From NCBI GenBank assembly GCA_003167415.1, contig PMTF01000016.1:124148-188147 (forward strand): a stretch of DNA of 64,000 bases, in the 5' to 3' direction. Positions 1 to 59,563 of this stretch are shown piece after piece. Position numbers and translations under genes: made by a program. The notes under the pieces are model-generated. The model ran no database searches, was not told where the DNA came from, and saw only the letters and a program-made list of their open reading frames with translations. Within the stretch, counting starts at the first letter, position 1; each line of letters opens with the position of its first letter. The DNA comes from Acidimicrobiaceae bacterium. Lineage in GTDB: Bacteria; Actinomycetota; Acidimicrobiia; Acidimicrobiales; RAAP-2.

Positions 1-310
1 TCAACTGCGGAATCAGTCCCAAATCTTGATGGACAAACGACATGCCGTATCCCTGAAAGGATGAACCGTTGAGCGGGAAGTTCACGGGTCGGACACCGAC
101 GTCAATCACCGCGCCCGGCTCGGGCACGTGGTAGCCAGCGAGTACCTTGATCAGCGTAGATTTTCCCGATCCGTTCTGACCGACCAGACCGTGCACCTTT
201 CCAGGCATGATTCGCATGGAAACGTCGTCCAGGGCTCGCGTGTCACCGAAGGCGACACTGAAGTTGTTCAGCGCAATGGACACGGATTGTTCAATGGTAG
301 GAGGACACAT
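1..310 (-). CDS. Sugar-type ABC transporter ATP-binding protein, 3' end outside window
   Basis: This is the first 103 or so residues of an ABC ATPase of the ribose/xylose importer (RbsA/XylG) type; the rest lies beyond base 1. The reading frame starts with ATG at 308-310 and shows the Walker A motif GQNGSGKST near residue 43, followed by a Q-loop segment FVHQDLGLIPQ near residue 94. It lies 108 bp downstream of the binding-protein gene at 419-1579 on the same strand, with a strong hairpin between them, so the two probably form one importer that energises uptake of a pyrimidine, nucleoside or sugar. The matching permease would be further downstream. The family call is firm; the substrate is inferred only from the operon. 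Confidence 0.88.
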   Translation of the reverse strand, partial: MCPPTIEQSVSIALNNFSVAFGDTRALDDVSMRIMPGKVHGLVGQNGSGKSTLIKVLAGYHVPEPGAVIDVGVRPVNFPLNGSSFQGYGMSFVHQDLGLIPQL

Positions 311-320
311 TGCCACTCCG

Positions 321-363
321 CACACTCACCCCACCGGAGGGAATCTCCGGTGGGGTGAGTGTG
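321..363 (-). promoter_or_regulatory. Perfect 19-bp stem-loop between binding-protein and ATPase genes
   Basis: The left arm at 321-339 (CACACTCACCCCACCGGAG) is an exact reverse complement of 345-363, with a 5-base loop. No run of T follows on the minus strand, so it is not a classical intrinsic terminator. Its place just after the binding-protein gene fits the mRNA-protecting or attenuating hairpins known after binding-protein genes of ABC operons, which raise binding-protein levels over the membrane components. The function is inferred; the pairing is seen directly. Confidence 0.8.
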
Positions 364-418
364 GCCGTCGAATGCAACCGGGGGCCACTTGCTTCAATGC
401 AATACAGCAGGCTCACTT

Positions 419-1579
419 CTATAGTCCCCAGAGTTTGTAGTAACCACTCACCCCAGAAGATCCGTAACCCTTGCTGTTCACGGGAGGCGTTCCGGCGGTG
501 TTCACGTTCTGAGTATCGAAGATGAGCAATGGTATGCCTTCATTCACTACCGGCGTCAGTCCGCTTGCGATGCGCATTTCGTTATCGATGATCGCCAGGC
601 TCACCCATTCCAGGTCTTCGCCGACGTCCATCTGAACAATCTTGCCCTTTTCGGTCTGCATGTCGCCGAGTACGAACGGCGTGCCGTCGTAACTCACGAT
701 GTGGACCTTGCCTACCTTGTTGGCGGTGGTGATAGCCGGGATGATGAACTGCGACTGGCTGTCATAGAGCGGCGAGATGTAGGTCAGGTTCGGGTGAGCT
801 TGCAACTGGGCCTGCACTTGGGTCCCCGTCGTTGTCGCCCAGTCCGCGACCGGAACATTGATGGTGTAAACCTTGCAGTTCGGGCATACCAGCTTGAACT
901 CCTTCTGCTCAGCTGCCAAGCCAAAGGAACTGGCAGCGACGTCGCTTGAACCGACGAGCAGTATCTGTCCCTTACCGTTGGAATGCACGGTCATCCAGTC
1001 GGCCTGCAACTTGGCTGTCTGCCCGTAAGGCGCATCCACCGTTCCGCTCAGAAGGGGATCGGCGGCTTGACCAAGCCCATAGGTATCCGAGGAGATCACT
1101 TTGATCCCGGCGGCCTTAGCCAGCTTGATCTGCGGCTCGAGGGTCTTGGGATCGATGCCCGACAGCAGGTCAATGACACTCACGTGCTCGCTGATCGCCT
1201 CGTTCATGCCAGTGGTCCATTGGGCCGGACTGCCACTGTTCTGAAAGTCGACGAACTTGAAGCCAATCTTCTTGGCCGCCGCAGCCATTCCATCTTCCAG
1301 AGTCTGAACGAATTGGTCACTGCTGTTCACCGGAATGCTGAAGATGATCTTGTTCTTCATGTCCTTCTTGGCGTTGAAGGACGGACCAGGCGCTTTGAAG
1401 GTTGGAATCGCGGTGTAATTGGCCAAGTGAGACTTGGCCAAGGCGATCCCCTTCGCCACTGATGAACCCGAGGCGCCGGCTGACGATGCAACCACGGCGC
1501 CCCCACCCAGCACCAACGCCACCGCCATCGTGGCTGCCGTTACTCGACGACCCTTTAAATTATTGTGCGTACTTCGCAT
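419..1579 (-). CDS. RbsB-type substrate-binding protein of an ABC importer
   Basis: A 386-aa secreted binding protein of the periplasmic-binding-protein type 1 (ribose/galactose-like) family. The N-terminus has a basic stretch, a hydrophobic core (MAVALVLGGGAVVASS) and an Ala-rich cleavage region, so it is exported; in a Gram-positive-type cell it would be anchored or held near the membrane. ATG at 1577-1579 is preferred over a GTG 21 bp upstream because GGAG sits seven bases before it. Internal segments such as GMNEAISEHVSVIDLLSG and VISSDTYG follow the family's ligand-cleft pattern. It is the last complete gene of the pyrimidine degradation operon and is followed by the partial ATPase. Its ligand may be a nucleobase, nucleoside or ureide; this is inferred from context, and sugar binding cannot be excluded. 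Confidence 0.87.
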   Translation of the reverse strand: MRSTHNNLKGRRVTAATMAVALVLGGGAVVASSAGASGSSVAKGIALAKSHLANYTAIPTFKAPGPSFNAKKDMKNKIIFSIPVNSSDQFVQTLEDGMAAAAKKIGFKFVDFQNSGSPAQWTTGMNEAISEHVSVIDLLSGIDPKTLEPQIKLAKAAGIKVISSDTYGLGQAADPLLSGTVDAPYGQTAKLQADWMTVHSNGKGQILLVGSSDVAASSFGLAAEQKEFKLVCPNCKVYTINVPVADWATTTGTQVQAQLQAHPNLTYISPLYDSQSQFIIPAITTANKVGKVHIVSYDGTPFVLGDMQTEKGKIVQMDVGEDLEWVSLAIIDNEMRIASGLTPVVNEGIPLLIFDTQNVNTAGTPPVNSKGYGSSGVSGYYKLWGL

Positions 1580-41611: not shown

Positions 41612-41804
41612 CGGCACGGGCGATGTCAGCAACAGCTCTTCCGAAAATGCATCCTACCGCCGCGACGCCGCCTCGCTCGGCGACGGAGTCGGCAGCCAGT
41701 GTCAGACCGCGCAGGGCATTATGGAGATCAATGCCTTGCGGTCGCAAATGCTCATGTGAATCTCCAGCGCCGCTCGAGACGCGAGAGTTCGCGGTCTCAC
41801 TCAT
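41604..41804 (-). CDS. 66-aa ORF joined to both neighbours by eight-base overlaps
   Basis: ATG at 41802-41804 overlaps the permease stop as ATGAGTGA, and its own TGA overlaps the hydrolase start with the same octamer. The peptide starts MSETANSRVSSGAGDSHEHL and has an alanine-rich helical-looking second half (LTLAADSVAERGGVAAVGCI). It has one cysteine and no signal or membrane segment. Double coupling in a compact operon argues for a real gene. I do not recognise a family; a small cytoplasmic regulator or subunit is possible. Confidence 0.6.
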   Translation of the reverse strand: MSETANSRVSSGAGDSHEHLRPQGIDLHNALRGLTLAADSVAERGGVAAVGCIFGRAVADIARADE

Positions 41805-42777
41805 AGCGTTCCCCGCCACGTAAAACGTCGGCGTAAACAGCAACCAGGATGATTGCGCCGGTGATGATGTACTGCCAATAGGGATTGACGCTACGCAGGT
41901 TGAGCAAATTGTCGACGACCTCCAAGACGGCGACACCCGTGACCGCACCCATGACATTTCCGACACCGCCGCGCGTGAGGCTATATCCAGCGAGCAAAAT
42001 GGGGGCATAGATCTGAAGCTCCAAGCCAAACCCCAGCGTTGTCTGAGCGGCTCCGTCCTGACCGACGTAGAGAATTCCGCCGAGGCAGGCGATGACGGCC
42101 GTCAGGATAAATAGGCAGAACTTGAGCTTGCCAACAGGGATACCCGCGCGATTCGAGACCGCCGGGTCGCCGCCCGCAGCGCGTATATGCCGTCCCCAGC
42201 GTGTGACCGCAAGGAGGATTGACGCAGCGCCGCCGAACACAAGGGCGATCAGCAGGAGCACAGGAACTCCAGCCCACGTTGCGTTCGTAAAATTGTAGAG
42301 ACCGGGCACGAACGCCGCTAGCGATATGTTGTTCAGAAGGATTAGCGTTAGACCTTGAAGTGCGGTCAAGGTGCCAAGCGTAACAATTAGCGGATTGGCA
42401 CCGAAAAACACGCAGGCCGTGGCGTTGAATGCTCCGACCGCCATTGCGCAAATTAGGGCAACTGCAGCGGCAGCAAATGGCACAAGGCCGTGACCGATGC
42501 AGATCGCAAAAACAGCGGCTCCGAAGCCCGTCATTGATCCGACGGAGAGGTCAATCACGCCTGCGAGCAGCGCCACGGAGGCGGCGATTGTGATGAGCAA
42601 CGGAACAGATGCAGCGCTGCTGATGACATAGAGATTGCTCGAAGTCAGGAACAGATGCGGCTCCAGCCGCCACCCCACGACGATCAAGAGCAGCAGTCCG
42701 ATAATTAGAACTCTCGTCGAGCTCGCAACTAGCGCTTTCCCAATCCGCTGCGCACGCGAAATCACTAACTGAGTCAC
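41797..42777 (-). CDS. RbsC-type ABC transporter permease (second subunit)
   Basis: A 326-aa permease of the sugar (ribose/xylose/YtfT) branch, with about nine hydrophobic segments. The family segment VIDLSVGSMTGFGAAVFAI, NPLIVTLGTLTALQGLTLIL and GDPAVSNRAGIPVGKLK (EAA-like) are seen. GTG at 42777 overlaps the first permease gene as GTGA. It forms a heteromeric channel with the 42774-43754 product, unlike single RbsC homodimers. The cargo is probably a sugar. Confidence 0.92.
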   Translation of the reverse strand: MTQLVISRAQRIGKALVASSTRVLIIGLLLLIVVGWRLEPHLFLTSSNLYVISSAASVPLLITIAASVALLAGVIDLSVGSMTGFGAAVFAICIGHGLVPFAAAAVALICAMAVGAFNATACVFFGANPLIVTLGTLTALQGLTLILLNNISLAAFVPGLYNFTNATWAGVPVLLLIALVFGGAASILLAVTRWGRHIRAAGGDPAVSNRAGIPVGKLKFCLFILTAVIACLGGILYVGQDGAAQTTLGFGLELQIYAPILLAGYSLTRGGVGNVMGAVTGVAVLEVVDNLLNLRSVNPYWQYIITGAIILVAVYADVLRGGERYE

Positions 42778-43754
42778 CTTAGACGTCGTTTGATCCGGAA
42801 CCCGTCGAGCGATACAGCGAACACGAGCAAGAGGCCTTGTGCCAACTGCGTCCAGTCCGGCGTGAGACCCATGACTATGAGCGATGTCGGAACAGTTGAA
42901 AGCAAGCCGATCCCGAGGATGAGGACGAGCATTGATCCCCGACCGCCTTGGAGTGAGAAGCCGCTCAGGATTACTGCGGTGATGGGGAGAAAAAGCAGAT
43001 TGGACGTGTCACTTGCGCTAATGAGCTGGGACTGCGCGGCGTACAGAACTCCGGCAATGCCAGCACACAACCCCATGAATCCGAAAGTGGCGATGCGAAC
43101 CCGCGCCAAACTGATACCCTGACGTTTCGCCGCGGGCGAACCTCCTCCCGCGGCGACGGCGTGTCGCCCGTAACGTGTCTGGCTAAGACCCAGCGCAGTC
43201 AAAAAGAGAACGCCCAGCATAAGCCAGGTGATATCCGGTAGGCCAATGAGGTGATTCAGACCGAGGTCGTGAAGGCCACTCTTCAATAGCGGAAACTCCT
43301 GTCCAAAAGCCATATTCAAGATGCCCACGCCAGCGAAGTTAACCGCCAAGGTAACTACGATCGGATTTATCTTCGTCAACACTATGAGTGAGCCGTTGAT
43401 CAATCCGACCGCACAACCGCAGGCCACTCCCACTATCGCCGCGGGCCAACTTCCGAAGTGATTTAGCACGACCGCAGTACAGAGCGCCGAAAGCGCTGTG
43501 GAGGCGGGGACGCTGAGATCTAGGAGACCCCCGCTGATCACTACCACCGCCTCACCAACGCTCAGCACTCCGATTACCGCCATGCTGAAAGCGATCGCGA
43601 GAAGCGTCTCGCGCGAAATGAATGCAGGGTGAAAACCCGCCGTCACTCCAACCAAGATGGCCCAAATGACGGTGAGAACTGCGGCCGTCCGCGCGGCAGG
43701 ACTTGCCCACGGCCGACTCTTCTCGAGTCGGCCGTGGGTCGTGTTAGTCACCAT
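42774..43754 (-). CDS. RbsC-type ABC transporter permease (first subunit)
   Basis: A 326-aa permease with the same family features: VVISGGLLDLSVPASTALSAL, INPIVVTLAVNFAGVGILNM and GGSPAAKRQGISLARVR. It follows the binding-protein gene by 73 bp and overlaps the second permease by four bases. Its N-terminus MVTNTTHGRLEKSRPWASP is polar and precedes the first helix. It belongs to the importer whose ATPase, binding protein and permeases are encoded at 45843 down to 41797. Confidence 0.92.
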   Translation of the reverse strand: MVTNTTHGRLEKSRPWASPAARTAAVLTVIWAILVGVTAGFHPAFISRETLLAIAFSMAVIGVLSVGEAVVVISGGLLDLSVPASTALSALCTAVVLNHFGSWPAAIVGVACGCAVGLINGSLIVLTKINPIVVTLAVNFAGVGILNMAFGQEFPLLKSGLHDLGLNHLIGLPDITWLMLGVLFLTALGLSQTRYGRHAVAAGGGSPAAKRQGISLARVRIATFGFMGLCAGIAGVLYAAQSQLISASDTSNLLFLPITAVILSGFSLQGGRGSMLVLILGIGLLSTVPTSLIVMGLTPDWTQLAQGLLLVFAVSLDGFRIKRRLR

Positions 43755-43827
43755 TTCAAACGCCTGGCGATAAGCCGGTGGCCGTAGTCACTGCTCCAAT
43801 ACTCCGCTCATCTCCTCCAGGACCGCT

Positions 43828-44979
43828 CTAACTTGCAGGGCAGAACAGCTGAGCTGCGGTCTTCTTGGGGTATTCAGCCAGCTCCTTCGTCCCCCGTTGC
43901 TGAAGGCCCGGGATGGTGGCCGCAACAGACTCCGACATCGGGCAAGTCGCCGCGATCAAAGTTGGATTCGTTGGGGTGAACCCCTTCTTCACGTTGTCGT
44001 GCGCAGCTAGCTCGAGAGCAATCGTCCAGGCAGGAAGAAGTCCCGCCTCCAGGAAGAACTGAATGCTACCGGCGTAGTGAGCGTCTGTCTCCGCGCCCAG
44101 GTCCGAACCGTCTCCACCCCAGGCATAGAGCTCACTAGCGCGACCCAGTTGTTCCGCCGCCGTAATGGCTTGAGTGACCCCGAGGTCGTTGAGTCCACCA
44201 ACCAGGATCTTTTTGGCAGTTGGATCGGCGACAAGAGCATCACTCGCAGCCGCGACCCCGGTCGCGGTGTCGTTGCTCACCTGCCATTGCACGAAATCAG
44301 AACTTGGTATGTTTGGGCAGACCGACAGCACTCCTGCAATGTCGCCTCCGACTCGTTCGGTCGAAGCCGCACCTGTCGGCGTGGAAGCGGCGAGCAACAC
44401 GAGATCCGGTGCGCAGTTCCAATTCGCCTTCGCGTAATCGCCAAGTTTGATTCCCGCAGCGACCCCCGTGGCATGGTCGTCATCACTTGTGAAGTATTCG
44501 CCCGGTCCGGGGATTCCTTCGGTGATCAAAGTTATATGTGCAGCTGCAGCCTTCGCATGCAACACTGGGTTCACCGTTCCGTCAATTTGGAACTCGATGA
44601 CATATTGGACTTTGTCCTCGACAAACTGATTCATGTTGGAAACGGCGGTTGGGCCACTTGCGTTGTTGTTGAGGACGAATGCCTTCCATCCGTAGCGCTG
44701 TGCGAGCCTCGTGAACATCCTTTGCTGCTCGTTTAGGAAGGCAAATCCAACGCCCCCGTTGGCAAATCCGATCCGGATGCCTCTCTTTACTTGTCCAGGA
44801 AGCGGAATCTTGCAACTGGACGATGGGCACAGTGGCTTCGCTTTCGAAGTGATTGTCGCGCTCGGCTGCTTCGCGTTCGCACGAGCGGCCTGCGCAACTC
44901 CCCCGCTTAATCCAACAACCAACATCAAAATCATTGCAGAGAACAAGCAGCATCCCCGCTGTAATTTCTTACTCAGCAT
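43828..44979 (-). CDS. RbsB-type sugar-binding protein
   Basis: A 383-aa secreted binding protein. ATG at 44977-44979 follows AAAGGAG and begins a basic, hydrophobic signal (LFSAMILMLVVGLSGGVAQA). The mature part has the type 1 binding-protein pattern RIGFANGGVGFAFLNEQQRM, YVIEFQIDGTVNPVLHAKA and LLAASTPTGAASTERVGGD. Several cysteines (SSSCKIPL, NWNCAPD, VCPNIP) probably form disulfides. It lies between the ATPase and permease genes. It is similar in kind to the binding protein at 419-1579 but belongs to a different operon; sugar specificity is not readable. Confidence 0.9.
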   Translation of the reverse strand: MLSKKLQRGCCLFSAMILMLVVGLSGGVAQAARANAKQPSATITSKAKPLCPSSSCKIPLPGQVKRGIRIGFANGGVGFAFLNEQQRMFTRLAQRYGWKAFVLNNNASGPTAVSNMNQFVEDKVQYVIEFQIDGTVNPVLHAKAAAAHITLITEGIPGPGEYFTSDDDHATGVAAGIKLGDYAKANWNCAPDLVLLAASTPTGAASTERVGGDIAGVLSVCPNIPSSDFVQWQVSNDTATGVAAASDALVADPTAKKILVGGLNDLGVTQAITAAEQLGRASELYAWGGDGSDLGAETDAHYAGSIQFFLEAGLLPAWTIALELAAHDNVKKGFTPTNPTLIAATCPMSESVAATIPGLQQRGTKELAEYPKKTAAQLFCPAS

Positions 44980-45021
44980 ATTTCTCCTTTTATTTGTTAC
45001 CACTCGAACTTCGATTCGGTG

Positions 45022-45843
45022 CTATTCGGACGGACTTCCCGACACGCCGGTAATCATCGAAATGATTTCCTCGGGCGTTGTATCAGCAATGGTCCGCACC
45101 CCAACGGTGAGACCCAAACGCATCACGGTCACGCGATCGGCGCACCCCATCAACTGTTCGATGTTGTGACTGACCATAACTACGCTGCAACCAGACGACT
45201 TCAGGCGACCGATAATCTCGAGCACGTGCGCCGTCTCGCGGACTCCAAGTGCGGCTGTCGGCTCGTCGAGAATGACGATGTTCCGGCCGAACAACACTGC
45301 CCGGGCGATGGCGAGCGCCTGACGCTGTCCTCCAGAAAGTTCGAAGACTGGGGAGTCGACTGACGGAATCCTCGCTCCAAGGTCGCTCAATACATCGTGA
45401 ACGCGCGCCCGCATCCGTTGTTTGTCGATGAGGCGAAGTAGGCGACTCGCCACTCCGGATCGAAGTAACTCGCGCCCCAAGAAGATGTTGGCAGTGCCCG
45501 AAAGCGGTTCGACCAACGAGAGATCTTGGTAGACGGTTTCGATCCCGCTCGCGAGCGCGTCGGCGGGCCGGCGAAAGTGCACGGGTTCGCCACGGATAAG
45601 CAAACTTCCTTCGTCCGGTGATATCGAGCCCGCGATCATCTTGATCAACGTGCTTTTGCCGGCGCCGTTGTCGCCGACCAAGCCCATAAGCTCGCCTTGC
45701 CGCAACTCGAGGCTGGCTCCGGCGAGCGCGGCGACGGCTCCGAATCGCTTCTGTATCCCCACGGCTTGCAGGACGAGTCCGCTTTCAGTGGCTCCGCTCT
45801 GAATGCCGGCGATCTGCGCCAACCCCGCCAAGTCCTTTGCCAT
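45022..45843 (-). CDS. Sugar ABC transporter ATP-binding protein (single-domain)
   Basis: A 273-aa ATPase: Walker A VGDNGAGKSTLIKM, signature FELSGGQRQALAIARA, Walker B IVILDEPTAALG and switch VVMVSHNIEQL. Unlike RbsA it has only one nucleotide-binding domain, so it presumably works as a homodimer, as in the FrcA-type importers. G-rich sequence precedes the ATG. It is the first gene of the importer operon, and a LacI-type operator candidate lies 43 bp upstream at 45886-45899. Confidence 0.92.
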   Translation of the reverse strand: MAKDLAGLAQIAGIQSGATESGLVLQAVGIQKRFGAVAALAGASLELRQGELMGLVGDNGAGKSTLIKMIAGSISPDEGSLLIRGEPVHFRRPADALASGIETVYQDLSLVEPLSGTANIFLGRELLRSGVASRLLRLIDKQRMRARVHDVLSDLGARIPSVDSPVFELSGGQRQALAIARAVLFGRNIVILDEPTAALGVRETAHVLEIIGRLKSSGCSVVMVSHNIEQLMGCADRVTVMRLGLTVGVRTIADTTPEEIISMITGVSGSPSE

Positions 45844-46355: not shown

Positions 46356-49100
46356 TCAAAGCGACGTACCCAGGAGCCCACGAGTAATTTGAAAACCCAC
46401 GTTGTTCGACGAAAGCGTTTTTGGCGTTTGCTTTCCAGAGGCAACCGCCGTCGCAATTTCGAGCACATCCAGTGCCTGCTGATTCTGGTCACCTCGTAAG
46501 GTCGCATCCAGGTCTTGAGCAATCGTGATCTCAGTTGACCGATCGGATGTTATTTGAACTACTGGAAGCAGTTGTTGGCCCGTGACTCCGGTGCCCACAA
46601 CATGAACGAGGAGCAACTGAACGCCAGTGGCTCCCAGTCCGCTGCAAATCTCGAGCCAATTGGTTGTGGGAGCGCGCATTACGTGCCAACCCGAATGTCG
46701 CGGGCGCTCGCCGTACGCCAATGTCGGAGCCACTGTGGCGCGGGCACCGAATGCGAGCTCGCGAAAATCTGGGTTGCCTAGCAGCGCTCCGGCGGAGGAA
46801 AGCACGACACTCCCTCCCTTGGTAACCACCCATCCACCAAAATTGGCAAGGGCGCGCGCAGTTTCCAACTTGAGTCGGCCCACTGCTTCTAGACCAACAC
46901 ATAGGTCACCAAGATCACCCGACTTACGCTCTAGAACCGGCAACGAAGACGAAGTCGAATCGAACCATTGACGAACACGCTCGGAGACCGCGTCGATTCC
47001 ACCGTCTAGTTGAATGCTCGCCCAACCGAATTGTCTCGGATCAAGGCCGGCCGAGACGAGACGATTTCGAAAATAATCATTGTGCGTCTTTTCGCACCCG
47101 TGCTCAAGCAATAACGCCATCCGAACACTCGGATGTGCCAGGTATCCCGTCATCGTTCTGGCGTACGTGTTTTCGGAGGATCCCCCGGAGGCTCCACAGC
47201 CCTCAGTGTGCGGAAGTGACACTGTTCTCGTCACCTTTCCATGGTGCCAGTCGTGAAGGTCTGCATCGGCTGCGAGCCTAAGTGCGATCTGGCCGGAGCA
47301 AAGACTAGTAGGCAGGATTAGAGCTAACTGTTCCGGACTCCGCCGATCGTGCACGCGGAACATTGGAATTTTCGCGTTCGCTTCGGCCGGTAATGTGCGA
47401 CGCGTCGATGGTTGTATGGGCGCCCCACCAATATCTGTGTCTTCGAGATCCGACAACAGATCTCCGCCAGATTCCATTACCGCGCCTTTCACCTTGATTT
47501 CCACGCGTTGAACTGGCTTCGTCTGCTTCCAATCGCGCCATATTGAAACCTGGCTCTGCTTCGATTTTTCACCAGCCGTTAAGGCTCCCGAGGCTGTCCG
47601 AATGACGAGGTCAAAGACCTCGGTCGTGAGTTCGTCCATCGGCGTGCCTGTTAGGTAGCGACCCGCATTGACGTCCATTTCTCGGTGCAACAACTCATAT
47701 CTACGGGTGGTCGTCACGACCTTGATGGTTGGGACAAAAGGAAAGTTCGTGATTGACCCGTTACCGGTGGTAAAGATTATGAGATTGCAGCCAGAGGCCA
47801 CTTGTCCAGCGACTGACTCGAGATCGTTTCCCGGGCTGTCCATGAACGTAAATCCCGGGCCGGGAAGCGGCGCTGCGTAATCAATGACATAGTCGAGTCT
47901 TAAGCCTCGATCCAGCTTTCGGGCCGCACCCACGGACTTGAGAACAATGTTGTAAAGACCGCGGTAGATGTTACCTCCGGTAGGATTTCCCTCCGCTGAG
48001 TGACCGTGCCAACCAACCCTCTCTTTGAATAGTTCGACCTTCTCAAGAAACTGCCGTGCCACATCAAAGTTGCGAACGTTCCCTAGTACGTATCTTTCGG
48101 CGCCGATCAGTTCATCCGTTTCAGCCAAATTTGCGGCCCCCCCATGTCTGATGAGTTCTCGAGCAACAGAGCCGGCCAGCGGATTGGCAGTGATTCCGGA
48201 GAAAGCATCGGACCCGCCGCACTGGAGACCGATGCCGAGATGGCGCAACGGCTGTTCCGTTCGCCTTTGCGAAGCAACCACCGGGAGCCATGGTTCAACG
48301 AGGAGCGCAGCGGCCGATAGGTCAGACTCGAAACCCTTACCGCGGGTGAAGAAGGCGTGGGGCACACTAATTGATGGATATTCATGATCAGCCATGAACG
48401 TCCTTAGGTCCTGACTGGTGACAACACCATCCGGTTCGTCAACGATCAGCACGGCTCCAATGTTGGGATGCGAAAGAAAGCCGGATAAGACAGTAAGGAT
48501 GAAGGTCAAATTATTTGGCCGGTGGTCCTCCCCAGCCTCCGTATGGGCTACGGGTACTACGCCGTCAAAGTTTGACGAGGATTCGGAGAATCGTTTACTC
48601 AGCTCGGTCACAAATGAACTACTTCTTGACGTCATGGCCACGATCGCAATATGGTTGCGCGTTCCAGCACGTCCATGGTCCCGCGCGTATCCAAGAAAAG
48701 TTTGTGATTCTTCAGAAGGTTCAATCTGATCCCCGAAATGCAGCTTGGATTCGTCGAGTGCGAAGGGATCCAATGACACGTTCGTCGCAGAAGGCTCATC
48801 CGGTAGTCCGGTAGTTCCCCGTTCACGGAGAGACTCCAAACTTTTAGCGGTGCAGACGTAGTCCCCTGGCAAAAGATTCCGCCGAGCTAGTGCAAACGGA
48901 GTCGACCACGACAAAAGCGGCTCGCCGGAAAGGATGGGCTCGGCAACGATGCGGTGACCCTCGATCACCGTATGGGGAAGAGCAACAATCTCGGTGGCAA
49001 ACCGAATCTCCGTTCCAGCGCTTAGATCCTGCGAAACGACCGCAACATTGTCACCGGATTCCGGAAGAATGGCGATGTCTGAAAAGTTGAGAATGGACAT
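46356..49100 (-). CDS. Tandem-duplicated UxaA-family (altronate-dehydratase-like) protein
   Basis: A 914-aa protein. Residues 1-90 form the SAF-type N-terminal domain (LSAGTEIRFATEIVALPHTV). Residues 135-540 follow the UxaA core: GYARDHGRAGTRNHIAIV, GLQCGGSDAFSGITANPLAG with C294, and FPFVPTIKVVTTTRR. Residues 585-890 repeat the core: LPTSLCSGQ (C601), LPHTEGCGASGG (C635), LLEHGCEKTHNDYF (C669) and a GLGATGVQLLLVHV segment. The first copy lacks the three cysteines at matching places (MTSRSS, AHTEAGED, IVDEPD) and the second lacks the GLQCGG motif (GLEAVG). ATG at 49100 has AAGGAG upstream. A hydroxy-acid dehydratase role is likely, on a sugar acid; usual members are about 500 aa. It is divergent from LacI. 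Confidence 0.85.
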   Translation of the reverse strand: MSILNFSDIAILPESGDNVAVVSQDLSAGTEIRFATEIVALPHTVIEGHRIVAEPILSGEPLLSWSTPFALARRNLLPGDYVCTAKSLESLRERGTTGLPDEPSATNVSLDPFALDESKLHFGDQIEPSEESQTFLGYARDHGRAGTRNHIAIVAMTSRSSSFVTELSKRFSESSSNFDGVVPVAHTEAGEDHRPNNLTFILTVLSGFLSHPNIGAVLIVDEPDGVVTSQDLRTFMADHEYPSISVPHAFFTRGKGFESDLSAAALLVEPWLPVVASQRRTEQPLRHLGIGLQCGGSDAFSGITANPLAGSVARELIRHGGAANLAETDELIGAERYVLGNVRNFDVARQFLEKVELFKERVGWHGHSAEGNPTGGNIYRGLYNIVLKSVGAARKLDRGLRLDYVIDYAAPLPGPGFTFMDSPGNDLESVAGQVASGCNLIIFTTGNGSITNFPFVPTIKVVTTTRRYELLHREMDVNAGRYLTGTPMDELTTEVFDLVIRTASGALTAGEKSKQSQVSIWRDWKQTKPVQRVEIKVKGAVMESGGDLLSDLEDTDIGGAPIQPSTRRTLPAEANAKIPMFRVHDRRSPEQLALILPTSLCSGQIALRLAADADLHDWHHGKVTRTVSLPHTEGCGASGGSSENTYARTMTGYLAHPSVRMALLLEHGCEKTHNDYFRNRLVSAGLDPRQFGWASIQLDGGIDAVSERVRQWFDSTSSSLPVLERKSGDLGDLCVGLEAVGRLKLETARALANFGGWVVTKGGSVVLSSAGALLGNPDFRELAFGARATVAPTLAYGERPRHSGWHVMRAPTTNWLEICSGLGATGVQLLLVHVVGTGVTGQQLLPVVQITSDRSTEITIAQDLDATLRGDQNQQALDVLEIATAVASGKQTPKTLSSNNVGFQITRGLLGTSL

Positions 49101-49467
49101 GCTGCTCCTTCGCGCATGATTCAAACGTCGGCCGCAGGTGGCAACTTGTTTGGCGACCCGGATTGGATCTTCAATTTTTCTCTAAGTCGAATATTATTTA
49201 GTATAGAGACACAATGTGCACCCATCGTTCTCGATAGAGTCTGGGGAATCTCGTCGCTGCTTGGGCCCGTGCACGGCTCTTCGATCGAGTTGCTCGTTGA
49301 CGAATTAAAACGAGAGCTCGAATGCTCAAACCGCTCGACCGAAAATGAGATTCATCCCCACATTTGCAAAGTACATTCAGTACCAGGAAGAATGGGACGC
49401 TTAGGTGTGTAGCGCGCACAGAGAGTTCGAGGGGAACATCGAAGGAAAGTCGCGAAGAGGGGACCCT
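49101..49467. promoter_or_regulatory. Divergent regulatory region between dehydratase and LacI genes
   Basis: The gap holds no supported gene. It contains an AT-rich stretch at about 49170-49215 with TATACTAAATAATATT on the minus strand, a plausible promoter for the dehydratase, and TCTCTA/TAGAGA arms around it that could bind a regulator. A single half-site GATTCAA lies at 49116. No full LacI-type palindrome with a central CG was found here. Confidence 0.4.
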
Positions 49468-50502
49468 GTGGACCGCGTCAGCATCAAGGATGTGGCGACG
49501 CGCGCGGGAGTCTCCGTGGGCACGGTTTCTAATGTCCTCAACCACCCAGGAATAGTTACCGACAAAACGCGACAGCGTGTGAATGATTCCATCAGAGATT
49601 TGAAGTTCGTTCGCAATGAGTCGGCGCGACAGCTTCGAGCTGGCCGAAGCCGAACGATCGGTTTGGTGGTCCTCGATGTCACGAACCCTTTTTTCACTGA
49701 CATCGCGCGAGGCGTAGAAGATGCGGCCAATAATGCCGATGTTGCACTAATCCTTTGCAACAGCGACGGAGCACCTGAGAAGGAGCACAGATATCTGACC
49801 ATGCTGGCTGAACAACGAGTGCTCGGTGTCTTGATTGTTCCCCTACTAGGTGGCGACCAACCTTTCCCTGAGGTCGTCGATCGATCCATTCCATTGGTTG
49901 TCGTAGACGTAAAGGCGCGAAAAAATGATCGATGTTCGGTGTCGGTAGACGATGTGGAGGGAGGGTTTCTTGCAACCTCGCACCTAATTCGACAAGGGCA
50001 TCGGAAAATTGCCTTCGTGGGCGGATCAGGTCGTCCGCTTCAAGTGGAGTCCCGCTTCAAGGGCGCCCGAAAGGCAATCGCGCAGGGGTCTCCGGGACTT
50101 CAACTTATTCCAATCACGGTTGATGAAATGAGCGTTGCGGGCGGACGCAGTGCCGGTGACAAAATAATGGAAATCCCAGGTCGGCAACGACCCACAGCGG
50201 CGTTTTGTAGCAATGATCTCCTGGCACTTGGACTCCTACAAACCCTCACGGATGTGGGCGCAAAGGTTCCCGAAGATCTCGCTATCGTCGGATATGACGA
50301 CATTGAATTCGCCGCTGCAGCGACAGTACCTCTGTCATCCGTACGTCAGCCAAGTCACAAACTTGGATACGAGGCGGCCCGTCTGCTGCTCGACGAGGCC
50401 GCCAGCGACGACCACAAACACCAACACGTGGTCTATTCCCCGGAGTTGATCGTGCGCCGCTCAAGCGACTTGTCCTGGGTCCGCCGTCCCAACAGATTTT
50501 AG
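49468..50502 (+). CDS. LacI-family transcriptional regulator
   Basis: A 344-aa LacI/GalR protein starting with GTG at 49468, after GAGGGG. The DNA-binding helix is at the N-terminus (VSIKDVATRAGVSVGTVSNV, then LNHPGIVTDKTRQRV), with the hinge helix near ESARQLRAGRSRTIGLVV and the sugar-binding core from residue 60 (DVTNPFFTDIARGVEDAANN to VGYDDIEFAAAATVPLSSVR). It is divergent from the UxaA-type gene and upstream of rhaM. It probably responds to rhamnose or a related sugar and binds the TTGAxTCG-type sites listed. The family is firm; the ligand is inferred. Confidence 0.93.
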   Translation: MDRVSIKDVATRAGVSVGTVSNVLNHPGIVTDKTRQRVNDSIRDLKFVRNESARQLRAGRSRTIGLVVLDVTNPFFTDIARGVEDAANNADVALILCNSDGAPEKEHRYLTMLAEQRVLGVLIVPLLGGDQPFPEVVDRSIPLVVVDVKARKNDRCSVSVDDVEGGFLATSHLIRQGHRKIAFVGGSGRPLQVESRFKGARKAIAQGSPGLQLIPITVDEMSVAGGRSAGDKIMEIPGRQRPTAAFCSNDLLALGLLQTLTDVGAKVPEDLAIVGYDDIEFAAAATVPLSSVRQPSHKLGYEAARLLLDEAASDDHKHQHVVYSPELIVRRSSDLSWVRRPNRF

Positions 50503-50658: not shown

Positions 50659-50982
50659 ATGAGCCAACGAGTCTGCTTCAAGTTGAGAATCAACCCGGAA
50701 TTCGTTGACGAGTACAAGCAACGACACGCTGAGGTATGGCCAGAGATGTTGACGGCGCTTTCAGAATCCGGCTGGACGAACTACTCGCTCTTCGTGGCGC
50801 CCGACGGAGAGCTAATCGGCTATCTCGAGTGCGAAGATCTTGCGAAATCCCTTGAACTCATGGGCCGGGCTGAGGTCAACACGCTTTGGCAAGCATCGGT
50901 GGCCAAGTTTTTTGTGGGGCTTGACGGAAGGGCGGCCGATGAAGCGATTCGTCCACTTGAGGAGGTGTTTCACCTCGTCTAG
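50659..50982 (+). CDS. rhaM: L-rhamnose mutarotase
   Basis: A 107-aa protein of the L-rhamnose mutarotase family, which interconverts alpha and beta anomers. The histidine in EYKQRHAEVWPEM, the SLFVAPDGELIGYLECED segment and the closing LEEVFHLV match RhaM; the length is normal. ATG at 50659 gives the expected start. It sits between LacI and the convergent rhamnosidase gene and works with the isomerase encoded at 53735. Confidence 0.93.
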   Translation: MSQRVCFKLRINPEFVDEYKQRHAEVWPEMLTALSESGWTNYSLFVAPDGELIGYLECEDLAKSLELMGRAEVNTLWQASVAKFFVGLDGRAADEAIRPLEEVFHLV

Positions 50983-50997
50983 AGATCTCAGCCAACC

Positions 50998-53433
50998 TTA
51001 GATTTTCCACTCGCGGCGGTGGTGTCCGGGCATCATTTCTTCAATGCTGTTGTCAGGCAGCCAAAGGCGGGCGGTTGTCCCTTCTGGCACGGTCAAATCG
51101 ATCTCAAACCCATTGGTCGTTTGCGTCCACGCCACATGGATTCGTCCATATGGACTCACGTGAAAGGTGCTGGCCCGAGTCAATCCGCCCCCTGGGAACG
51201 GACGAACCGAAAACCTTTGATACCCGGGCTCCAACTCCTGCAGTCCTGCCGTATATCGATGTAGAAAACTGATGACCGCGCCTTTCGAATAGTGATTCAG
51301 AGACGCACGAGAAACTCCCTTCCCGTCGATGCCTTCCCACTCCTCCCAGACCGTCGTGGCGCCTCGGTCAAGCATGAGCAGCCACGAGGGTTCCGTGCGT
51401 TGAAATAGCAACTCATATGCAACGTCAACATGACCAGTATCCGCGAGTACCGGAAGAAGAAACGGCGTGGCTAGAAAACCGGTACCAAGGTGAGTCCCGG
51501 CTTCGCGAATTAGTGCAACGAGTTGAGAAGCAACGTCAGCGAGAATATCTGCAGGGACTAGGTCAAATGCGAGAGCCCGCGTCAGGTTTGCTTGCGACCG
51601 AGGCGATACGACGCCGTTCTCGTCAATGAACTCCCGCTGCCACGCGTGACGGACTTCGTTGGCAAAGTCTCTCAGTCGAAGAGACTCCCCACTAAGGCCA
51701 ATTAGGTCAGCGATTTCGCTCATCTCGTTGGCCGTTCGATACATGAATGCAGTCGCCACGGCACCGTGATCATCAGAAAAAGCCCGAGCCCGAGACCTTT
51801 CGAGATCCACACCGGGTTCGAGCCACTCGCCGAAGTGAAAGCCTGTATCCCAAAGATACTTCTCATGATCCAGGGGTTCTGCCGAACGTTCAATTCGGCT
51901 CGGATGTCGCTTCGTCGCCGCAATATTCCGCGCATAGTCAAGCCACGCGGTCATGGAGGGCCACTGCTCTGCGAGCACATCAGTCTCTCCGGTACTCCGA
52001 TACAGTTGCCACGGCACGTGAACGGCCGCGTCCCCCCAGCCAGAGCAACCTTGAATCTCCTTCCAATCTGTGATGGCGCGATCGTCATTTGGATTGGGAT
52101 CCGGCACGATATGGGTGACCGCGCCTGACTCGAGTTGGTCGGCAGCGAGATCACGCAACCACTTCCGTGAAAAGGCCATTACGTCATAAAGGTAGGAAGC
52201 CGTCTCGATGTAGATCTGCCAGTCGCCGGTCCAGCCCGATCGTTCTCGCGTGGGACAGTCGGTTGGTATGTCGCACGCGTTTCCCCGAAAACTCCAGTCG
52301 GCGGCTAAGTGCAACCTATTTATGTCTTCGCTTGAGCATTTGAATGAGCCAATCTGAGCTAACTCGGTATGCACGACGACGCTGACGAGGTCCTCAACAT
52401 CCATCACTTCCAAGCCATCAACTCGGACAAACTGAAACCCCTTAGTCGAGTGTCGTGCTTCAAATCTCTCCCCAATTCGTCCCGACGAAATAACTTGGTC
52501 TACCTGAAATGTGTCGCTGCGGGACTCCGGCACACCTAAGCGGTAGTGCGCGACGTTGGCTTGCACAACGTCGCCAGCGTCATCAAGGGCTTCGCCGTAG
52601 GTGATTGTAATAATGTTGCCTTCTGGACCGAGCTTGTTCAGACGTACCCATCCGTTACTGTTTTGTCCGAAGTCGACGATCCAGGATCGTTCGGCAATCT
52701 TCCTTGTCCAAACCGCAGGGAGTTCGGTCACTCGCATAACCGGCGGCCCACTCGGCTCGCACAATTGGTCGAAGCCATAATCCCGAACAGCCACGGGTTC
52801 CCACGCGGAGCGATCACCTCCTGGAGAAATCGACTTCGGTGAGAACTGCCTTAAGTCGTGTATCTCGCCGGCAATATTGTCCGCCCGTATGATGTGACTT
52901 TTCTTCGACCGCCACTGCTCACCGGTGACGAATGTGAGTTCTTCGCCATTCTCTAATACAACAATCAATTCGGCAAGGAACGCTGTGGTCGGTCCGTAGT
53001 CGTCGACACGACGCGCAAAGCCATTCTGTCCGCGCCACCATCCATCACTCAACAAAGACGCAATGACATTTTCTCCCGCCACAAGTAGGTCCGTCACGTC
53101 AAAGGAATGAACCTGCAGTCGACGGCGATAAGCCGTGAAGCCCGGCGTGAGTTCTTGATCACCAACCCGTTCGGCATTGACGAATGCTTCGTACACTCCG
53201 TGCGCCGTCGCATGCAGGGTGGCTCTCGCAACTTGACCCGGAAGTTCCACCACGCCCGCAAGCCAGTATGCCGGGCGTTGTCTGGCGAATTCACCGACCG
53301 CTTCGCAGGGTTCAATCCACTGAGCGGCCCATTGCGTTGGATCAAGAAGGCCAATCTCCCACGGGCGTTCGCACTCCCCCGCGTCACGGACACGAAGCCT
53401 GTGTCCTACCGGTGCCGCGGTTTTCCTGCTCAT
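50998..53433 (-). CDS. Alpha-L-rhamnosidase, GH78
   Basis: An 811-aa enzyme of family GH78 that releases L-rhamnose from plant glycosides or pectin fragments. The N-terminal beta domain contains PAYWLAGVVELPGQVARATL, the middle has WIVDFGQNSNGWVRL, and the catalytic (alpha/alpha)6 barrel shows DIPTDCPTRERSGWTGDWQI, where the acidic residues act, followed by GWGDAAVHVPW and a C-terminal SVRPFPGGGL domain. No signal peptide is evident, so it likely acts in the cytoplasm on imported glycosides. It is slightly shorter than many GH78 proteins at the N-terminus. It is divergent from rhaI, with two LacI-type sites between. Confidence 0.94.
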   Translation of the reverse strand: MSRKTAAPVGHRLRVRDAGECERPWEIGLLDPTQWAAQWIEPCEAVGEFARQRPAYWLAGVVELPGQVARATLHATAHGVYEAFVNAERVGDQELTPGFTAYRRRLQVHSFDVTDLLVAGENVIASLLSDGWWRGQNGFARRVDDYGPTTAFLAELIVVLENGEELTFVTGEQWRSKKSHIIRADNIAGEIHDLRQFSPKSISPGGDRSAWEPVAVRDYGFDQLCEPSGPPVMRVTELPAVWTRKIAERSWIVDFGQNSNGWVRLNKLGPEGNIITITYGEALDDAGDVVQANVAHYRLGVPESRSDTFQVDQVISSGRIGERFEARHSTKGFQFVRVDGLEVMDVEDLVSVVVHTELAQIGSFKCSSEDINRLHLAADWSFRGNACDIPTDCPTRERSGWTGDWQIYIETASYLYDVMAFSRKWLRDLAADQLESGAVTHIVPDPNPNDDRAITDWKEIQGCSGWGDAAVHVPWQLYRSTGETDVLAEQWPSMTAWLDYARNIAATKRHPSRIERSAEPLDHEKYLWDTGFHFGEWLEPGVDLERSRARAFSDDHGAVATAFMYRTANEMSEIADLIGLSGESLRLRDFANEVRHAWQREFIDENGVVSPRSQANLTRALAFDLVPADILADVASQLVALIREAGTHLGTGFLATPFLLPVLADTGHVDVAYELLFQRTEPSWLLMLDRGATTVWEEWEGIDGKGVSRASLNHYSKGAVISFLHRYTAGLQELEPGYQRFSVRPFPGGGLTRASTFHVSPYGRIHVAWTQTTNGFEIDLTVPEGTTARLWLPDNSIEEMMPGHHRREWKI

Positions 53434-53489
53434 CAGTAACCTCCCTTCGGCATTGCCGCTACCTCCCAGGACCCAACAAATCGAGTTAC

Positions 53490-53503
53490 TTGTAACGATT
53501 CAA
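53490..53503. promoter_or_regulatory. LacI-type operator candidate 1 in the rhamnose divergent region
   Basis: TTGTAACGATTCAA is an imperfect palindrome: its right half CGATTCAA matches the site at 53650 exactly and its left half matches six of eight. It overlaps GTTACTTGTAAC, a separate five-base-arm palindrome at 53485-53496. It lies 57 bases upstream of the rhamnosidase start codon, suited to control that gene. Confidence 0.45.
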
Positions 53504-53649
53504 GGCGCATCCTGAGAGAACAGTACAACGAAATCACTAAGGCGCCACGAGGGCCTTTGACGCCATTCCCAGTACCGTTTAGATAGGGTTTGTTTGCCCT
53601 CTGTGAAAGCCACTTGACGTAGCCACGTAGTCGTGTGAAATACTCTTTG

Positions 53650-53663
53650 TTGAATCGATTCAG
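53650..53663. promoter_or_regulatory. LacI-type operator candidate 2 in the rhamnose divergent region
   Basis: TTGAATCGATTCAG contains the perfect 12-base palindrome TGAATCGATTCA (53651-53662) with a central CG. It lies 71 bases before the TTG start of the isomerase gene. With the sites at 53490 and 45886 it suggests a LacI regulon that joins the rhamnosidase, the rhaI operon and the importer. The rest of this 301-bp gap shows no gene. Confidence 0.55.
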
Positions 53664-53734
53664 AACCAGCGGCAAATCTGGTGCAAAATTCCTCGCCAGG
53701 GAGCTGTTGCCTAATTTGTTTGGGGGAAACTGCC

Positions 53735-54898
53735 TTGAATACGTCGGACGCGCTCAGAGTTCTTCGAGACCAGGAAATCGAACTCCCTTCGTGGGCTTTC
53801 GGCGATTCGGGGACACGATTCAAAGTGTTCCACCAGTCGGGTGTACCAAGGAACCCTTTTGAGAAAATTGACGACGCCGCCCAGGTGCATCGACTCACTG
53901 GGATTACTCCGAGTGTTGCATTGCATATTCCCTGGGACAGCGTTGATGACTTCTCATCATTGGCGTCTTACGCCGGTGAACGAGGAATTTCGATTGGCAC
54001 GATCAATGCCAACGTATTTCAGGACGACGACTTCATGCTTGGAAGTGTTGCCAATCCTGACCCCAAGGTGCGTCAAAAGGCAGTGCATCATCTCCTCGAG
54101 TGTATAGACGTGATGGACGCCACTGGCTCAAAGGATTTGAAGTTGTGGTTCGCTGACGGCACTAACTATCCGGGGCAAGACAACATCAGATCGCGGCAAG
54201 ATCTTCTCAGTTCCGCTTTGCGCGAGGTTTACGATCGCCTCGCTCCCGATCAACGTTTGGTTCTTGAGTACAAGTTGTTCGAACCATCGTTCTACACAAT
54301 GGACGTCCCCGACTGGGGCACCGCATTTGTTCACTGCCTGGAACTTGGCAGTAAGGCCGTTGTGTGCGTTGATCTCGGTCATCACGCACTCGGCACGAAC
54401 ATTGAATTCATCGTGGCGATGCTGGCGAGGCAAGGTAAATTGGGGGCGTTCGACTTCAATTCGCGGTTCTATGCTGACGATGATCTGATGGTCGGATCTG
54501 CGGACCCATTCCAACTCTTTCGAATTCTTAACGAGTGCGTGGCAGCGAGACTTTTGGATCCAGATTCAGGCGTGACCTTTATGTTGGATCAATGTCACAA
54601 CATTGAACCGAAGATTCCAGCTCAGATTCGATCAGTGATGAATCTTCAAGAGAGCACAGCCAAAGCCCTTCTCATTGATCGCGACTCATTGGGCGATGCT
54701 CAACGCGCGGGAAACGTTTTGGAGGCAAATGCGATATTTATGGACGCGTTCAATACCGACGTACGACCAATGTTGGAAGAACTCCGCAAAGAGCAGGGTC
54801 TCGATCCGGATCCGATGAACGCCTTCGACAGTTCCGGATACGCAAAGCAAGTCGCAGCCGAAAGGGTCGGCGGCGAACCATCCGGTTGGGGAGCTTGA
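53735..54898 (+). CDS. rhaI: L-rhamnose isomerase (RhaI type)
   Basis: A 387-aa isomerase converting L-rhamnose to L-rhamnulose, of the actinobacterial/Pseudomonas RhaI family rather than E. coli RhaA. Seen: IELPSWAFGDSGTRFKVFHQ, LKLWFADGTNYPGQDN, the metal ligands in VLEYKLFEPSFY and VCVDLGHHALGTNIE, and FDFNSRFYADDDLMVG. TTG at 53735 follows GGGGGA and matches the expected N-terminus; a GTG 54 bp upstream is an alternative. It overlaps the next gene by 13 bases and is the first gene of the rhamnose operon. Confidence 0.93.
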   Translation: MNTSDALRVLRDQEIELPSWAFGDSGTRFKVFHQSGVPRNPFEKIDDAAQVHRLTGITPSVALHIPWDSVDDFSSLASYAGERGISIGTINANVFQDDDFMLGSVANPDPKVRQKAVHHLLECIDVMDATGSKDLKLWFADGTNYPGQDNIRSRQDLLSSALREVYDRLAPDQRLVLEYKLFEPSFYTMDVPDWGTAFVHCLELGSKAVVCVDLGHHALGTNIEFIVAMLARQGKLGAFDFNSRFYADDDLMVGSADPFQLFRILNECVAARLLDPDSGVTFMLDQCHNIEPKIPAQIRSVMNLQESTAKALLIDRDSLGDAQRAGNVLEANAIFMDAFNTDVRPMLEELRKEQGLDPDPMNAFDSSGYAKQVAAERVGGEPSGWGA

Positions 54899-56973: not shown

Positions 56974-56975
56974 AC

Positions 56976-58331: not shown

Positions 58332-59563
58332 ATCCACTCAAGTCGATTGCTTCTGTAGTTCGATTCAAACGATTCGAAGCGAATCCGTCACTACGTCGAC
58401 TCGCCAAAGCAGCTTCAGTCGCTGATTTACGTCGACTCGCGCAACGTCGACTTCCCCAGGGTGTTTTTGACTATATCGATGGTGGCGCTGAGGATGAGCG
58501 AACACTTTCTGACAACGTATCCGCGTTTGCCAACGTGTCCTTTCGACCACGCGTGCTCCGAGGCCTCAGTGATGTTCGTATTGGCTCTTCGATTCTTGGG
58601 AATACGCTCGAATATCCGTTAATCCTCGCTCCAACGGGCTTTACGAGAATTGCCGATCCCCAAGGTGAACTCGCGGTTGCCCGTTCGGCAGCGAGAGCCG
58701 GCCTTCCATACACGTTGTCGACGCTAAGCACGCGTTCAATTGAAGAGGTCCGATCTGTGAGCGATGGTCGACTTTGGTTTCAGGTCTACGCTTGGCGCGA
58801 TCGAGGTCTCTTAAAAGAGATGATCGATCGAGCTGCCGCCGCACGATTCGAGGCTCTCGTCCTAACCGTCGATACCGCCGTGCTGGGTCGACGAGAACGC
58901 GACATTCGACACGGATTTTCTCTTCCCCCAACGATTGGCCTCAAAACCATCGTCGACGGCGTAAGACACCCCTCGTGGACGTGGTCATTTATTCGGAGCG
59001 AACCCATTCGTTTTGCAAATGTCATCGGAAGAGAGGTAGGTGACGGAGCGTCACCGGTCAGACTCTCCGACTACATCAACACCCAATTCGACAGCGGCCT
59101 ATCGTGGCGCGATGTCGATTGGCTTCGTTCGGTCTGGGATGGTCCCGTCGTCCTTAAGGGAGTTCAGACCGTTGAGGATGCTCGACTAGCCGTAAAGGTC
59201 GGCGTTGAAGCGATCGCACTCTCCAACCACGGTGGCCGACAACTTGACGGGGCGCCAGCAATACTCGGTCTCGTCGCTCCCGTATCTGACGCCGTGGGCG
59301 GTGAAATCGAGATTATTTGCGATGGTGGCATACGCCGAGGTAGCGACATCGTAAAGGCAGTCGCATTGGGAGCTTCAGCCGCGATGGCCGGTCGCGCCTA
59401 TCTCTATGGTTTAGGCGCCGCCGGCGAAATGGGCGTAGATCGCGTGCTCGAGTGGTTCCGGAATGACCTAATTAGGACCTTGAACCTCATCGGCGTCAGT
59501 TCGTTCGAAGAACTTGACCGAACTTGCTTGGAGTTCTCTCGCGATGTAGAAATTCGTCTGTGA
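58328..59563 (+). CDS. lldD: FMN-dependent L-lactate dehydrogenase
   Basis: A 411-aa alpha-hydroxy-acid dehydrogenase that oxidises L-lactate to pyruvate. Seen: GVFDYIDGGAEDERTLSDN near residue 50, LILAPTGFTRIADPQGE, PYTLSTLSTRSIEEV, FQVYAWRD, and the active-site stretch ALSNHGGRQLDGAPA with the catalytic histidine. It follows rhaB as ATGA and would consume the L-lactate formed by the bifunctional enzyme, feeding electrons to the respiratory chain. Other family members act on mandelate or glycolate; the operon supports lactate. Confidence 0.93.
   Translation: MNPLKSIASVVRFKRFEANPSLRRLAKAASVADLRRLAQRRLPQGVFDYIDGGAEDERTLSDNVSAFANVSFRPRVLRGLSDVRIGSSILGNTLEYPLILAPTGFTRIADPQGELAVARSAARAGLPYTLSTLSTRSIEEVRSVSDGRLWFQVYAWRDRGLLKEMIDRAAAARFEALVLTVDTAVLGRRERDIRHGFSLPPTIGLKTIVDGVRHPSWTWSFIRSEPIRFANVIGREVGDGASPVRLSDYINTQFDSGLSWRDVDWLRSVWDGPVVLKGVQTVEDARLAVKVGVEAIALSNHGGRQLDGAPAILGLVAPVSDAVGGEIEIICDGGIRRGSDIVKAVALGASAAMAGRAYLYGLGAAGEMGVDRVLEWFRNDLIRTLNLIGVSSFEELDRTCLEFSRDVEIRL

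Follow-up and report, generated by a model that had tools for sequence, protein, structure and literature searches.

Reciprocal loss of metal-site cysteines in a tandem UxaA/GarD-type dehydratase suggests one active site shared between its two halves

The window analysed here is a stretch of 64,000 nucleotides from an Acidimicrobiaceae bacterium (contig PMTF01000016.1, positions 124,148 to 188,147), and its minus strand carries an open reading frame (ORF) of 914 codons that encodes two tandem copies of the core of UxaA/GarD-type dehydratases. Each copy has lost the metal-site cysteines that the other keeps, a pattern which, judged from the aligned sequences, is not one of chance. We consider it quite likely that the product is an iron-dependent sugar-acid dehydratase in the form of a one-chain pseudo-heterodimer, with one live site made by the third domain (D3) of copy 1 and the second domain (D2) of copy 2, and with the mirror site dead. 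The domain order, the reciprocal loss, its deep conservation, an unfused archaeal counterpart and the lack of any other UxaA gene in the genome are all visible in the sequences themselves. The frame runs without interruption from an ATG at 49100, with an AAGGAG-like ribosome site just 5' of it, to a stop at 46356; an alternative in-frame start (TTG at 49124) would give a protein of 922 amino acids (aa).

The 914-aa protein has the domain order SAF-D2-D3-linker-D2'-D3' of the UxaA/GarD superfamily, where D2 corresponds to PF04295 (GD_AH_second) and D3 to PF20629 (GD_AH_C). When the halves were scanned separately against Pfam, the N-terminal half matched PF04295 with 73.9 bits and PF20629 with 257.3 bits and the C-terminal half matched them with 51.1 and 31.1 bits, so that all four matches exceed the curated cut-offs (27.3 and 26.8 bits). 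An unrelated domain in the second half is ruled out by these matches. The initial annotation had described the UxaA core as repeated: the D2-D3 tandem is confirmed, but copy 2 has no SAF domain and an incomplete D3, and the chain is therefore not a whole UxaA twice over. The SAF domain is found at the N-terminus only, with none before copy 2, and in a structure search of the predicted model it matches 3k3s_A (aa 7-109, Z 12.7) and 3laz_A (aa 8-109, Z 11.6). A direct comparison of the halves gives a best match of only 24% identity over 144 residues, which points to an ancient duplication. D3 of copy 1 holds the motifs LQCGGSDAFSG, ETDEL, GNPxGGN, FMDSPGND and TTGNGSITNFP; from the alignment, D3 of copy 2 has lost both the active-site cysteine and the segment with the NPSPGN-type motif. 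Among the eight cysteines of the protein are C294, C601, C635 and C669 (914-aa numbering). As first annotated, C294 (in GLQCGGSD) is kept by copy 1, which is without the three D2 cysteines, and C601, C635 and C669 are kept, at the positions originally numbered, by copy 2, which has lost the D3 cysteine motif.

This division is conserved across all the tandem relatives that we aligned. A scan of 84,980 species-representative genomes with a profile of copy 2 returned 405 related stretches; among the best 80 of these, the match lies within a complete tandem ORF in 74 and within an ORF cut by a contig end in six, and the six were excluded from the copy-1 columns (n = 77 full-length sequences, against n = 83). 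C294 is invariant (77/77), and at the positions of copy 1 that align with the D2 sites (159, 190 and 222-226) a cysteine occurs in 0/77; 37 of the 77 have unrelated cysteines elsewhere in that domain. Conversely, C601, C635 and C669 are invariant in 83/83 and the D3 site of copy 2 has a cysteine in 0/77, so the survey of long homologues proposed with the initial annotation finds the reciprocal split in every full-length tandem sequence. The patterns CEKTHND or [ML]PTSLC[SA]GQ, with which 80 of the 83 tandem sequences were retrieved, contain C601 and C669, and these two residues were thus partly selected for, while C294, C635 and the losses were not. A pattern-free protein search with copy 2 in 396 genomes of the window's phylum gave strong matches (E<1e-59) in 25 genomes, all of one family (evidently Rubrobacteraceae). 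All four cysteines are present in 21/21 sequences found without motif patterns (19 loci from this phylum search plus plasmids of Rubrobacter and Pantoea), several of whose genomes are also among the best 80.

The same division occurs in haloarchaea on separate chains. The Haladaptatus plasmid NZ_CP119783 carries three overlapping genes, encoding an alpha protein of 396 aa, a SAF protein of 106 aa and a beta protein of 377 aa, all annotated as 'UxaA family hydrolase'. The alpha protein retains ECGGSD but none of the three D2 cysteines; in the beta protein all three are present and the CGG motif is gone. Searches with alpha and with beta return an identical set of 16 haloarchaeal plasmids, of which 14 pairs were read (the remaining two score 99.7-100%). 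Both the gene order alpha-SAF-beta and the reciprocal loss hold in 14/14: alphas keep only the D3 cysteine and betas keep the three D2 cysteines, with the D3 position of beta drifting (C once, and S, V or A in the others). Because this form is unfused, the two cysteine sets, if both are needed, must meet from two chains, and we regard the archaeal split as the strongest single argument for complementing halves in the fused protein. In trees built from every second of 54 four-cysteine classical sequences and 8/14 archaeal pairs, copy 1, copy 2, archaeal alpha and archaeal beta each occupy one side of a branch. With separate trees on D3 (alpha-type) and D2 (beta-type), from which two gappy classical rows were left out, shared ancestry of the bacterial fusion and the archaeal genes is not rejected (approximately unbiased test, p 0.63 and 0.64); the two may have one origin or two, perhaps independent. 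The annotation of the beta gene of Halostagnicola larsenii (L146:4521-5728) is too short: a separate 'hypothetical protein' immediately precedes it, and the protein as annotated lacks the first strand.

No other source of the missing cysteines is apparent in the host genomes. The genome of the window (96.6% complete) has no PF20629 match outside the fused ORF, and in 14/14 genomes reached via fused loci, several of them metagenome-assembled and listed without completeness, every PF20629 match lies inside the fused ORF.

Single-copy relatives are arranged differently. The control set comprised 61 non-fused UxaA-type ORFs (59 distinct), drawn from the loci read out among the matches, with sources that included 296 genomes from the phylum to which the window belongs and 200 from that of a gammaproteobacterial metagenome-assembled genome. 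All four cysteines are present in one chain in 54 of the 61, and both UxaA and GarD of E. coli carry the three D2 cysteines and the D3 cysteine on one chain. The 1 + 3 split is therefore a departure from this arrangement: no single D2-D3 unit of the fused protein contains all four cysteines, which come together only over the whole chain. The three D2 cysteines are absent from the other seven control ORFs and from two further ORFs. The seven group in a clade of their own, whose D2 motifs differ (VDDISN, YGR); we give it the provisional label SuyB-like, following a statement in the superfamily paper cited below, and these ORFs probably encode sulfolactate sulfo-lyase. The fused N-halves and the SuyB-like group each lie on one side of a branch (support 100 for both), and the fused protein does not fall in the clade without D2 cysteines. 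The SuyB-like ORFs (e.g. L242:6290-7450, with similar ones in L241, L243-L247, L259 and L260, from Actinomycetota genomes) each stand beside a short SAF-type ORF. In 9/9 such loci the sole other UxaA/SAF-type ORF is short, and searches with hidden Markov models in all frames of the stretches read gave no cysteine-bearing partner.

The four positions have been associated with iron in a characterised member of the superfamily. The D-arabinonate dehydratase of Herbaspirillum huttiense is described as brown and as stored with Fe2+ and dithiothreitol, and its electron paramagnetic resonance signals include a rubredoxin-like high-spin ferric one (Watanabe, 2019; PMC6336799). According to that paper, only four of its eight cysteines are common to UxaA/GarD enzymes, sulfolactate sulfo-lyase excepted, and Cys134, 173, 208 and 276 are proposed as ligands of one iron (PMC6336799). 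By their place in the family motifs, these four proposed ligands are the positions that are split 1 + 3 in the fused protein.

We infer iron, the meeting of the four cysteines and dehydratase activity from these observations in the following way. Gene duplication and fusion would have converted a UxaA/GarD homodimer into a one-chain pseudo-heterodimer, a pseudo-symmetric dimer with two sites that would each consist of one D2 and one D3. In the retained site, D3 of copy 1 would contribute C294 and its motifs, and D2 of copy 2 would contribute C601, C635 and C669; D2 of copy 1 and D3 of copy 2 would be the decayed mirror pair. The four cysteines would jointly bind a single iron, in a rubredoxin-like site such as has been proposed for the superfamily, and the reaction would remove the alpha proton and then the 3-hydroxyl from an aldonate-type acid to yield a 2-keto-3-deoxy acid. 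Cis pairing, in which a live site would form from the D2 and D3 of a single copy, is judged unlikely, because it would leave neither site intact. The suggestion, made from the sequence at the outset, that the halves complement each other in one shared site gains from the invariant reciprocal conservation, the archaeal split, the lack of any other cysteine source, the published four-cysteine iron proposal and a predicted D3-D2' packing of fair confidence. Of the metal or Fe-S site suggested alongside, mononuclear rubredoxin-like iron is likelier than an Fe-S cluster.

The predicted structures are consistent with this arrangement. A full-length AlphaFold2 model, computed from an alignment of 33 sequences, has a mean predicted local distance difference test (pLDDT) score of 85.8 and a predicted template modelling (pTM) score of 0.88. 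Residues 4..527 of the model, covering copy 1, align with E. coli GarD (6u7l_D) over 439 residues with Z 43.7 and a root-mean-square deviation (rmsd) of 3.0; GarD (6u7l) was the only full-length solved relative found in the structure searches. The model thus supports the GarD fold for copy 1, and the homology of copy 2 is drawn from Pfam. When the piece comprising D3 of copy 1, the linker and D2 of copy 2 was folded alone, it gave a pTM of 0.72 and a pLDDT of 77.3. Since this pTM exceeds the ~0.45-0.58 expected for unplaced domains (our own estimate, on simple assumptions), D3 of copy 1 and D2 of copy 2 probably pack directly against each other in the model. Compared with GarD, this segment model aligned in D3 only (213 residues, Z 23.8). 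In the full model, the range 148..890 is matched by GT-B enzymes such as 3tov_A at a middling Z of 6.8 (244 residues, rmsd 4.5, with only the ends of the range given), a hint that D2 of copy 1 could lie against D3 of copy 2. Foldseek also returned weak, non-significant likeness to 2-hydroxyacyl-CoA dehydratase-type and double-cubane Fe-S proteins (8s02, 7yyl, 6eno and 3o3m).

Several points weigh against a shared iron site. GarD itself was reportedly crystallised with Ca2+ in its metal site and not with a four-cysteine iron. The D3-D2' packing model has no cis control, and AlphaFold can pack truncated domains artificially. Mutual-information covariation between the domains favoured no pairing, in an alignment too shallow for the purpose (94 sequences, ~36 effective). 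Five Rubrobacteraceae genomes with the fused gene (G236, G298, G376, G424 and G453) also hold a second, separate PF20629 ORF, so the fused gene is not the sole UxaA-type gene in every host; all five of these ORFs are of the SuyB-like class without D2 cysteines, and so could not supply them to the fused protein. The SuyB-like relatives are reportedly still lyases, and the loss of the D2 cysteines alone is thus no proof that copy 1 is dead by itself; these relatives speak against a plain rule by which every member requires the D2 cysteines. The rubredoxin-like site in the superfamily is likewise only a proposal (PMC6336799).

These relatives give rise to the best-surviving alternative, which we nevertheless think improbable: copy 1 (SAF-D2-D3) would be a complete enzyme that needs the D3 cysteine only, as in SuyB-like sulfo-lyases, and copy 2 a structural or regulatory pseudo-enzyme. 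Copy 1 does span all of GarD in the structural alignment, there is precedent in the seven of 61 homologues without D2 cysteines and in the nine loci without a cysteine-bearing partner on the stretches read, and the superfamily paper describes sulfolactate sulfo-lyase as being without the same cysteines (PMC6336799). But a purely structural partner would not need the three D2 cysteines, which are invariant in copy 2 (83/83) and in the archaeal betas (14/14) while the D3 cysteine of beta drifts (C, S, V, A), and the SuyB-like group is a separate clade with D2 motifs of its own. A second alternative would keep both halves functional and divide them into separate metal sites, with D3 of copy 1 catalytic and D2 of copy 2 holding its own three-cysteine metal or Fe-S cluster in another role. 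Three conserved cysteines could hold a cluster alone, and the Foldseek similarity to Fe-S proteins, weak and non-significant as it is (8s02_B, E 2.1e-2; 6eno, E 5.5e-2; 3o3m_B, E 0.2), points the same way; however, the same three positions occur together with the D3 cysteine on one chain in 54/61 relatives and are proposed to form one iron site (PMC6336799), and we consider this alternative still less probable than the first. A chance fusion, assembly artefact or decaying gene, which the patchy occurrence of the gene within its genus (see below) might have suggested, is scarcely credible given an intact frame, a full tandem ORF in 74/80 loci with the other six cut by contig ends, and occurrence in named isolates and complete plasmids; artefact and pseudogene are ruled out by the conserved relatives with the same architecture and cysteines.

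The preferred reading, a single site shared across duplicated units, leads to a broader proposal that we favour slightly: throughout the superfamily the iron site may lie between subunits, with three cysteines from one D2 and one from the partner's D3. Each homodimer would then have two equivalent shared sites, and duplicated subunits could therefore each drop a different half. The bacterial fusion and, perhaps separately, the haloarchaeal heterodimer may have arisen in this way as asymmetric single-site dehydratases that have gone unrecognised. A route of this kind, duplication and then the loss of one shared site out of two, is familiar from other enzymes. That familiarity limits the surprise; what raises it is that the metal site is shared out between duplicated subunits in two parallel formats (one fused chain and two separate chains), together with a testable prediction, namely that the iron of UxaA/GarD dehydratases sits between subunits. 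In line with the original remark that no description of such a fused complementing pair had been seen, we found no description of a tandem or two-large-subunit UxaA in the literature searched, a body of text with few subscription journals that included passages of PMC11775122, PMC12421959 and PMC12632266.

The fused form is present in at least nine phylum-level groups, counted from the labels of 22 of the best 80 stretches and from the plasmid copies placed in the tree: Actinomycetota, Chloroflexota, Thermomicrobiota, Pseudomonadota, Acidobacteriota, Gemmatimonadota and the candidate phyla Poribacteria, Latescibacterota and Handelsmaniibacteriota. A first scan of genome contigs with a single protein as query gave no relatives; the 405 stretches came later, with the copy-2 profile. 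A tblastn search of plasmids gave two records with a query coverage of 80% or more, from Rubrobacter indicoceani (49.5% identity) and Pantoea soli (39%), both annotated merely as 'UxaA family hydrolase'. No NCBIfam model scored above its cut-off in the three tandem proteins scanned, and GarD proper (the TIGR03248 equivalog) is ruled out at 154.6 bits against a cut-off of 730.85. The 405 related stretches therefore represent a group easily misread as plain altronate or galactarate dehydratases. The nearest aligned relative of the window's copy is from Kribbella (62%), with Qaidamihabitans equally near by copy 2. The fused gene is absent from the 36 other genomes of the same genus (among 60 relatives searched), three of which have a distant single-copy homologue only; from this distribution, lateral transfer into the host lineage is likely.

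Table 1. Coordinates in the window of the tandem dehydratase, its domains and metal-site codons, and the adjoining transport and regulatory genes.
Feature	Coordinates	Strand	Basis
Whole coding sequence including stop, tandem UxaA/GarD-type dehydratase, 914 aa	46356..49100	-	Read directly; full-length relatives exist
SAF (beta-clip) domain, aa 1-110, single occurrence	48771..49100	-	Structural matches 3k3s_A, 3laz_A
D2 copy 1, PF04295, ~aa 134-275, three metal cysteines lost	48276..48701	-	73.9 bits; alignment columns
D3 copy 1, PF20629, ~aa 286-515, conserved motifs intact	47556..48245	-	257.3 bits; alignment columns
C294 codon, sole metal-site cysteine from copy 1	48219..48221	-	C in 77/77
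Linker, ~aa 516-587, mostly low confidence in model	47340..47555	-	AlphaFold
D2 copy 2, PF04295, ~aa 588-722, three metal cysteines kept	46935..47339	-	51.1 bits
C601 codon (PTSLCSGQ)	47298..47300	-	C in 83/83
C635 codon (LPHTEGCG)	47196..47198	-	C in 83/83
C669 codon (LEHGCEKTHND)	47094..47096	-	C in 83/83
D3 copy 2, PF20629, ~aa 730-907, degenerate	46380..46913	-	31.1 bits; alignment
Sugar-type ATP-binding cassette (ABC) transporter (ATPase, binding protein, two permeases), downstream of dehydratase	41797..45843	-	Gene scan
Divergent LacI-type regulator	49405..50502	+	Gene scan; link to dehydratase from position only

Within the window, the ABC transporter is, from its position only, a possible substrate uptake partner of the dehydratase. 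The dehydratase region also adjoins an L-rhamnose cluster (50659-59563) with mutarotase, alpha-L-rhamnosidase, RhaI isomerase, RhaD-dehydrogenase fusion, rhamnulokinase-like and LldD-like genes; to our knowledge, the fused dehydratase is not a part of the phosphorylating rhamnose pathway. For neighbourhoods elsewhere, a crude script picked 186 ORFs in 23 loci, of which 135 were chosen and 10 were scanned singly, 113 together and 12 left unscanned. The commonest Pfam families among the 113 are Aldedh (5) and FAA_hydrolase, GATase and PhyH (4 each), and the 10 scanned singly (nine directly adjoining the fused gene, one a gene away) include three FAA_hydrolase proteins and two with no match. Such neighbours (FAA hydrolase, aldehyde dehydrogenase and similar) are not decisive for the substrate. 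Nramp metal transporters and lactate-utilisation/LUD-domain genes lie near the fused gene in Rubrobacter indicoceani (L039:10536-20438) and near the unfused triplet on two Haladaptatus plasmids (L149, L249), surroundings that would be in keeping with an iron enzyme of sugar-acid catabolism. Elsewhere in the window, ORFs at 1666-9125 resemble hydantoinase/dihydropyrimidinase, carbon-nitrogen hydrolase, semialdehyde dehydrogenase and aminotransferase, by eye a cluster for pyrimidine or beta-amino-acid breakdown.

The fused protein can be compared with four known or newly read systems. With the UxaA/GarD superfamily (COG2721; PF04295 + PF20629) it shares the order SAF, D2, D3 in copy 1, the GarD fold and, in total, the same four cysteine positions, but members of the superfamily have neither a duplicated D2-D3 on one 914-aa chain nor a 1 + 3 division of the cysteines. 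D-Arabinonate dehydratase belongs to the same superfamily and has the four conserved cysteines and iron, but is a single copy with all four on one chain. The sulfolactate sulfo-lyase SuyAB pairs a small SAF-type protein with a D2-D3 protein, and SuyB resembles copy 1 in being without the three D2 cysteines; unlike the fused protein, it has different D2 motifs, its SAF-like part is on a separate ORF and no second copy gives cysteines. The haloarchaeal alpha-SAF-beta system shares with the fused protein a pair of D2-D3 units that have reciprocally lost their D2 and D3 cysteines, and differs in being encoded by three separate genes instead of a single fused chain.

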